This document shows positions 42,871 to 43,596 of a stretch of 52,058 nucleotides of DNA, in pieces. The translations under genes were made by a program, and so were the position numbers. The notes beneath the pieces were generated by a model, which searched no databases, was not told the DNA's origin, and saw nothing but the letters and a program-made list of their open reading frames with translations. Origin of the DNA: an uncultured Angelakisella sp. (lineage in GTDB: Bacteria > Bacillota > Clostridia > Oscillospirales > Ruminococcaceae); assembly GCA_934524965.1 (NCBI GenBank), contig CAKSYU010000010.1, positions 1 through 52,058 of the forward strand. The letters are read 5' to 3'. Each line of letters starts with the position of its first letter. Within the stretch, counting starts at the first letter, position 1.

Positions 42871-43182
42871 TCAGGTGTACTTTGCCATATACTCCGCCAG
42901 CGAAGGAATGGTATCCGCCCGCCAGTAGGCGGAGCAATCACGGGTGCGCTCCAGCAGGCAGGTATTGTACATCTCCCGCCGCAGCGTCGCCGGATCGTGG
43001 AAGGTCGTCCAGTCATCGAGCAGGTCGTTGATCTCGCCTTCGGTATATTGGCACGCCGGCTCCACCTTGCCCGACAGGTAGTAAAGGGCAAGGAGCTTCT
43101 TTTTGTGCTTGGCGGGCAGCGCCGTCAGCTGCTCCTTTTCATTCAGAAAGGGTTTAAGCTCCGGAATATCACAGTTTGCCAT
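42871..43182 (-). CDS. DUF2087 domain protein
   Basis: A 103-residue protein that consists of a DUF2087 domain: FLNEKEQLTALPAKHKKKL, then YTEGEINDLLDDW, HDPATLRREMYNT and the final SAYWRA. The domain is winged-helix-like and is found alone or fused to ArsR-type regulators; its role is unknown. I start at MANCDIPELKPF (43182) with GGAGG upstream; the longer frame continues into the promoter region. It lies upstream of spo0A in the same direction, separated by 267 bp. Confidence 0.85.
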   Translation of the reverse strand: MANCDIPELKPFLNEKEQLTALPAKHKKKLLALYYLSGKVEPACQYTEGEINDLLDDWTTFHDPATLRREMYNTCLLERTRDCSAYWRADTIPSLAEYMAKYT

Positions 43183-43206
43183 GGGGATCGCCTCCTTTAT
43201 TTTTGT

Positions 43207-43235
43207 ATTGTAGCATAAAACCCGAGATATTCCAA
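43207..43235 (-). promoter_or_regulatory. Sigma-A promoter of the DUF2087 gene
   Basis: -35 TTGGAA (43230-43235), 17-bp spacer, -10 TACAAT (43207-43212), reading leftward. Confidence 0.65.
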
Positions 43236-43256
43236 CCCGTGAAAACACACTGCTCG

Positions 43257-43286
43257 TAGACAATCCGCCGCTTTTTGCGGTATAAT
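43257..43286 (+). promoter_or_regulatory. Sigma-A promoter upstream of the ansA leader element
   Basis: -35 TAGACA (43257-43262), 18-bp spacer, perfect -10 TATAAT (43281-43286). Transcription would start near 43293, just before the inverted-repeat element, so the element would form most of the ansA 5' UTR. Confidence 0.65.
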
Positions 43287-43295
43287 AAGAATAAA

Positions 43296-43573
43296 TACCT
43301 TCGCTTGACAAGAGCACATACGGTTTTTGCGGGCAGAAATGCCGTATGGCATTGTGCGGCTCATCGACAGGCGCCAGCCTGCCATCTTCGCCGCACCTCC
43401 CCCTACAACATTTCTGCCGCGCAAAAACTCCGCAGGACTTTTCGACGAGGGAAAACCAGATGATGACAAGGAAGAGAACCGCAGGAATACTTGCGTATTT
43501 CGAGGTTCGATGACGCAGTCAGCGCTGGTTTTCACCGTCGAAAATGCGTGTGTGTCCTTGTCAAGCGAAGGTA
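43296..43573. mobile_element. 278-bp terminal-inverted-repeat element (candidate MITE)
   Basis: Perfect 17-bp terminal repeats TACCTTCGCTTGACAAG (43296-43312) and CTTGTCAAGCGAAGGTA (43557-43573); similarity runs inward for about 15 more bases (CACA-ACG-TTTT). The ends are TA, as expected for insertion at a TA target. No protein is coded. The interior has two nested hairpin trees: arms 43323-43341 with 43409-43428 enclosing GTGCGGC/GCCGCAC and CAGGC/GCCTG; and arms 43439-43459 with 43525-43544 enclosing GAACC/GGTTC and AATAC/GTATT. It sits between promoter and ribosome-binding site of ansA. It could instead be a structured leader RNA. Confidence 0.7.
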
Positions 43574-43596
43574 CACCACGGAAATGAGGTCTTGCC

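Follow-up and report, generated by a model that had tools for sequence, protein, structure and literature searches.

A MITE-like element with a folded core between the promoter and coding sequence of ansA in an uncultured Angelakisella

The window analysed here is a 52,058-nucleotide stretch of DNA from an uncultured Angelakisella sp. (contig CAKSYU010000010.1), and the feature of interest lies between a divergently oriented gene for a DUF2087 protein and ansA, which encodes a type I asparaginase (Table 1). The near-consensus ansA promoter is made up of TAGACA (43257-43262), an 18-nt spacer and TATAAT (43281-43286), with a further 9 nt before a MITE-like element that runs from TA to TA; its score, like all promoter scores given below, uses position weights that are our approximation of σ70 sites. 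Transcription is expected to start at about 43293, some 7 nt past the -10 box, while the GAGG sequence lies outside the element stem and 7 nt 5′ of the ATG (43597), and 23 nt lie between the element and this ATG. A preliminary description of this DNA had noted the promoter just outside the element, which is strong by our scoring, and had proposed that the element forms nearly the whole ansA leader, which is a fair reading of the predicted start and of the short distance to the ATG.

Table 1. Features of the ansA locus in the window
Feature	Position	Strand	Basis
Divergent upstream gene, DUF2087 protein	42871..43179	-	PF09860, E 1.1e-22
ansA promoter, TAGACA-18-TATAAT, just outside the element	43257..43286	+	Sequence; score 14.7; -10 ends 9 nt before the element
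MITE-like element, TA to TA	43296..43573	+	278 bp; end-to-end geometry common to 275-279-bp elements
Left terminal inverted repeat, outer 17 bp perfect	43296..43328	+	Arm comparison
Putative second core in the left hairpin tree, inverted and diverged; less certain	43328..43422	-	29 bits, E 3.5e-7, 371-base search, filters off
Core motif (right hairpin tree)	43444..43540	+	Model R2: 67.6 bits, E 4.6e-15; sole window match at E up to 1
Right terminal inverted repeat	43541..43573	-	Arm comparison
Likely ribosome-binding site of ansA, GAGG, outside the element	43586..43589	+	Sequence, inference
ansA, type I asparaginase, 335 aa	43597..44604	+	TIGR00519 above cut-off; PF00710, PF17763

The inverted-repeat element itself was found with the extent first described. 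Its arms of 33 nt each are 85% complementary, and their comparison verifies the perfect outer 17 bp and the TA at either end; at up to three mismatches the 17-mer end occurs at only two places in the 52 kb, both of them ends of this element (shuffled sequences gave a mean of 0.12 matches). Folding of the 278 nt predicts an outer stem that encloses two hairpin trees, as had been proposed, at -144.7 kcal/mol compared with a mean of -84.05 (sd 5.22) for 200 dinucleotide shuffles, none of which was as low (z -11.6). The enclosed DNA also appears to be non-coding, as gene calling placed no gene within 43183-43596, although mechanical open reading frames of 86, 108 and 160 aa overlap the element. 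It is thus short and non-coding with terminal inverted repeats, as expected of a MITE.

A search among relatives, which the preliminary description had called for, recovered further copies. The end pattern occurred at up to one mismatch in 4 of the 32 genomes from the genus of G033, a genome that holds further relatives of the element, and at up to three mismatches there were 20 end sites in G984, 18 in G033, 9 in G008 and 2 in G1003 (7, 1, 1 and 4, respectively, for a reversed-pattern control), so that several copies per genome are present in G984, G033 and G008. Seven of the two-ended copies in this family, called TACC after its ends, are 277 bp long and carry near-identical ends at unrelated loci, and the others measure 44-52 or 128 bp; G984 holds eight two-ended copies. 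The 44-52-bp elements (L243, L245, L247, L242, L238, L249) are two TACC ends without a core, and represent either internal deletions or a minimal mobile form; their existence indicates that an element can occupy a site without a core. Of 291 genomes sampled from the class to which G033 belongs, four encode a LeuRS that shares 75-77% identity with the LeuRS of the window. Searches with the 278-bp DNA, which returned mostly core matches, were positive for one phage record and for 5/36, 3/295 and 4/398 genomes in three sets, and for no plasmid; viral contigs gave one 17-mer match lacking a second end and no match to a strict core pattern. The phage record, MT837146.1, contains a 332-bp two-ended relative (L082, 2420-2751) upstream of a gene that we take to encode an Xaa-Pro peptidase; it is labelled Bacteriophage sp. 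and may be a bacterial contig.

The comparison of empty and filled sites was made in these relatives, by using the joined flanks of six sites to find orthologous loci, with junctions read partly by eye (the aligner gapped L241 and L253 poorly). The empty site has one TA where the filled site has two for L245 (compared with L258) and L253 (compared with L265). For L241 (compared with L260 and L261), the filled copy is bounded by TA and CA, and a single TA marks the empty site. In L259, another relative of L245, the position of the TA is occupied by CA, and the L243 site is empty in L262, where the surroundings are rearranged. The target-site duplication is therefore one seen in relatives of the window element. 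In the G962 family, 39 of 47 copies are bordered by TA at both ends. The -10 box is already present in the empty orthologous sites of L245, L253 and L241. Read from these alignments, the promoter in the relatives predates the insertion, and insertion took place at TA. Together with the copies at unrelated loci and a lack of conservation with ansA (see below), the single-TA empty sites support the earlier suggestion of a MITE that now serves as a 5′ UTR, the leader being predicted from the promoter.

The right hairpin tree belongs to a motif of ~97 nt, here called the core, that has no Rfam family match. A seed of 18 cores, taken by sequence from 26 listed ones after near-identical members were left out (A1), had compensatory change at 17 of 24 pairs, and a model (R1) was positive at E up to 0.01 in 13 of 16 genomes, most of which were picked because of matches in earlier DNA searches. 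A broader count at E up to 1e-6, in which 14 candidates per genome were scored, places the core in at least 64 of the 291 genomes of the class sample. With the cut-off at E 0.01, R1 matched 148 places in the 1.6-Mb genome G962 (of 150 candidates scored), 66 in G853, 47 in G017 and 39 in G163; repeats this dense shape the genomes of gut Clostridia. Among 55 distinct cores, 93.5% of the cells pair (shuffles 66.8%, slid structures 34-55%) and all 24 pairs show two-sided change, in an alignment that was fitted to the model and so favours pairing, as core sets from a structure model do. By our reading, the loops ACAAGG/ACGC and GCAG/AAG are constant while the stems vary. A second model (R2), built from 25 cores that include no TACC-family member, finds the window core independently (Table 1).

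The left hairpin tree resembles the same motif on the opposite strand, where R2 detects it in a short search with filters off and a whole-window search with default filters at E up to 1 does not. R2 located second cores on the opposite strand at 4 of 17 loci (L117, L133, L284 and L288) and in no copy from G033 or G984; R1 added L271, L272, L279 and L285. An arrangement of two inverted cores is therefore firm for some families; it is only suggestive for the TACC family of the window, given the weak score of the window's second core; the remaining 13 loci scanned with R2 gave none.

Two observations concern how the cores are placed in assemblies. In G163, five tandem cores lie about 105-110 bp apart between two genes, presumably rpsU and asd (L108, 1496-2025). 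In addition, several contigs (C8, C39 and C74 of G008; C195, C76 and C8 of G853; C59 and C26 of G962) stop no more than ~35 bases from an element end or a core, as would be seen if such repeats break assemblies.

Cores lie outside called genes, with 0/79 and 0/46 inside them in two sets. The first set derives from 81 matches, from which we left out one match of 33.6 bits in L160 and, in L181, a duplicate on the opposite strand, and 69 of its 79 cores are flanked by called genes on either side. Where the neighbouring genes are co-directional, the core was oriented with them in 17 cases and against them in 18, and in the second set (27 of 46 classed) in 7 and 9; these counts are not summed, because at least three copies occur in both sets. 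Only three pairs among 67 neighbouring proteins were alike between loci, one of them a near-identical orthologue pair, so a tie of the core to a particular gene was rejected. Seventeen of 20 neighbours scanned had a Pfam match, none to a transposase.

Ends and core differ in how they are conserved. Repeats anchored at TA that match at 13 or more of 16 positions flank 27 of 46 core loci, compared with 8 of 266 when flanks are swapped. Long forms of 275-279 bp occur at nine loci with at least six end types (L133, L117, L280, L283, L291, L277, L288, L293, L284), others depart from this length (L271, 267 bp; L298, 253 bp; L276, 299 bp; L082, 332 bp), and forms with one core measure 144-172 bp. By our reading, 51 of 57 copies listed for G962 share one end type and the other six show at least three further types. 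In ten elements, positions 3-28 of the repeats are on average 35% identical (77% for the highest pair) and the cores 66%. RNAalifold applied to 12 whole elements gave 53 pairs, 45 with compensatory change, including pairs of the terminal helix, in which the TA alone is invariant. As judged from these alignments, terminal repeats have diverged or been replaced across the Clostridia, while the core, the TA ends and the total length have been retained.

The kinds of mispairs found in the two parts also differ. The terminal helix has 32 G-T and 32 A-C mispairs (26 elements, some of one family), whereas the core has 101 G-T and 11 A-C (44 sequences below 80% identity), and seeds chosen by sequence have 42 and 9. 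The core strand folds better than its complement in 28 of 29 cases, by a mean of 9.8 kcal/mol, while whole elements show no strand preference in a test in which one row (G033_C18) was mis-oriented. Because a repeat kept as duplex should be symmetric for G-T and A-C and a folded strand should not, the ends resemble DNA sites and the core resembles RNA or single-stranded DNA; the ends thus look as though they are kept as duplex DNA and the core as a folded single strand. Some bias enters these counts where cores were picked with a structure model. The earlier idea of a structured regulatory RNA is not supported for ansA, yet survives in another form, as a core with the signature of a folded single strand.

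Copies of the TACC family also share a position relative to promoters. An inward promoter with a -10 box ending 0-12 nt outside an end accompanies 9 of the 16 two-ended elements (one-ended remnants were left out), compared with 133 of 759 intergenic TA sites at the same loci (17.5%; p 5e-4); at a promoter score of 11 the counts are 8/16 and 63/759 (p 1.6e-5), and with the window element removed 8 of 15 have a promoter at a score of 9. In successive 13-nt bins, the numbers of the 32 TACC ends with a promoter are 9, 1, 1, 0 and 0. Outside this family, a close promoter was found at 4/14 ends in G237, 2/20 in G022, 3/94 in G962 and 1/39 ends of 20 other elements, so that a preference for start sites as a general trait was rejected; it is clear in the TACC family and perhaps present in G237. 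The G237 elements (L186-L190, L105, L107) form a 162-bp family with TATTGC ends, and their promoters at 0-12 nt are few cases. The TACC family offers natural experiments, since a leader insert of 44 or 277 bp is present in some orthologous genes and missing from others at the same promoter.

The window element is best read as a MITE and not as a leader RNA of ansA, and the whole explanation, a non-autonomous mobile element in the ansA leader with duplex ends and a core that folds as a single strand, is one that we consider probable. To judge from its relatives, the element would have inserted at a TA near the ansA transcription start, leaving the upstream promoter and the downstream ribosome-binding site intact, and the ansA mRNA would thereby gain a folded leader of ~278 nt in which GAGG is predicted to be free. 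The ends would act as an inverted repeat of duplex DNA, to which a transposase, now lost or unseen, presumably binds. The core would be maintained in folded, single-stranded form with a defined polarity, probably as RNA, and would be adjoined by a diverged inverted copy. With such an inverted second core, transcription from either flank would yield an RNA that contains a core in sense orientation. The likeliest guess about the role of the core, speculative as it is, would be that it works for the element that carries it, at the level of transcripts or of movement. It is also conceivable, as a tentative extension, that these elements form a superfamily whose heritable identity is the folded, RNA-like core, selected because it acts or is recognised single-stranded, with ends that are swapped or re-evolve yet stay paired and TA-ended; one branch would target transcription starts, so that its core would be transcribed at once from a host promoter.

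An ordinary MITE would be a simpler account, in which nothing but the TA and the terminal repeats is of importance, the core is carried along by descent, its pairing reflects palindromic DNA, and the position at starts follows from an AT-rich target preference. The core-free short copies, the unbiased orientation of cores toward genes and the TA ends throughout all fit this account, but it leaves unexplained why the core is more conserved than the ends, why loops are conserved while stems covary, why the G-T excess is confined to one strand, and why the promoter test is passed so much less often by TA sites at the same loci than by TACC elements; we regard it as rather unlikely. For a core to outlast the transposon ends around it is the reverse of the usual MITE pattern, and makes the purpose of the core a testable question.

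This reversal can be seen by comparison with known systems. Integron attC sites, which border gene cassettes and have no TA-ended repeats, keep their pairing while stem sequence is free, with one strand folded. The core is like attC in these respects, a comparison of how the two work that claims no membership, and the present elements are unlike attC in having TA-ended repeats and in not bordering gene cassettes. In ERIC, Correia/NEMIS and Nezha the ends define the family, ERIC and Correia having TA targets, whereas the present elements have the core in common and differ in their ends; EFAR inserts into stem-loops, and the present elements target TA. ERIC, Correia/NEMIS and Nezha are described as small, non-coding bacterial MITEs with inverted terminal repeats that are often intergenic, transcribed and stably folded (PMC10969869, PMC3733652), EFAR of enterococci is named among miniature elements (PMC3733652), Efa-1 has a pair of adjacent stem-loops (PMC2267715), and RUP and BOX of Streptococcus pneumoniae are short interspersed repeats with paired terminal repeats and tight folds, BOX being modular internally and in one case part of a compound 5′ UTR, and RUP having ends that resemble those of IS630-Spn1 (PMC3049150). 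The window element is like the first group in being small and non-coding with inverted terminal repeats, like EFAR and other stem-loop families in being palindromic, of about the same size and complex in fold, and like RUP and BOX in being a short interspersed repeat with paired ends and a tight fold. Unlike RUP and BOX, it has a core common to elements with unrelated ends across many genomes, and no matching IS was found. The family has apparently not been described before, in that we recognised no paper on core-bearing elements in a literature that, for subscription journals, was mostly outside our reach.

The preliminary description had attributed mobility to an IS630/Tc1-type transposase, of which the TA target is supported and the enzyme is not. 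No pair of TACC-type ends at the distance expected of an autonomous IS was found in the four genomes scanned, and an IS630 DDE_3 match was present in one of 32 genomes of the genus and absent from G984 despite its eight two-ended copies; DDE_3 was found in 5 of 10 core-bearing genomes. G962 contains an IS630-type remnant (L225, 815-1835) with the ends TATAGCWACTTGAC, situated between two core elements 1.2 kb apart. These ends differ from the element ends, the part in common with TACC ends being TA, 7 nt and TTGAC, a likeness that is perhaps chance. IS630 as the present driver is thus not supported.

Movement as folded single-stranded DNA by a Y1 transposase (IS200/IS605 or REP-type) would suit the strand-specific fold and the conserved loops, and one TA in empty and two in filled sites would also fit if one TA were the target and the other the element end. 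Long terminal repeats are, however, not typical of this transposase class, the presence of PF01797 shows no association with that of the core (42 of 64 genomes with a core, 130 of 227 without; p 0.25), orientation is unbiased along co-directional genes, which stand in roughly for the direction of replication, and G476, G391, G359 and G542 each have at least 14 core matches but lack a Y1 match at E up to 0.001; a REP/Y1 element was rejected on the PF01797 result, and we hold this mode of movement to be very unlikely.

An ansA-specific leader RNA, a riboswitch or similar, that resembles a MITE by chance is highly improbable, since against the position between promoter and start codon and the strong fold stand the absence of the element upstream of ansA in 80 relatives (0 blastn matches at E up to 1; AnsA at most 68% identical to the window protein), an Rfam scan of the window that gave three tRNAs only at gathering score, and related elements beside unrelated genes in either orientation. 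On the same grounds of conservation and Rfam, an ansA riboswitch or T-box was rejected, as was the fixed core orientation expected of a leader RNA on the orientation counts given above, and in annotation such leaders are not to be mistaken for riboswitches. Below-threshold Rfam matches of the element were at chance level, and no ERIC, RUP or BOX model was among the matches. Model R1 matched six places in the 80 ansA loci at E up to 0.1, three of them weak matches about 100 nt upstream of ansA in Trichococcus (L005, L007, L010), at E values of 0.05-0.08 that correspond to chance level and probably reflect an unrelated hairpin. The three clear matches lie about 570 nt downstream of ansA in L076, about 5 kb upstream in L077 and about 3 kb downstream in L029.
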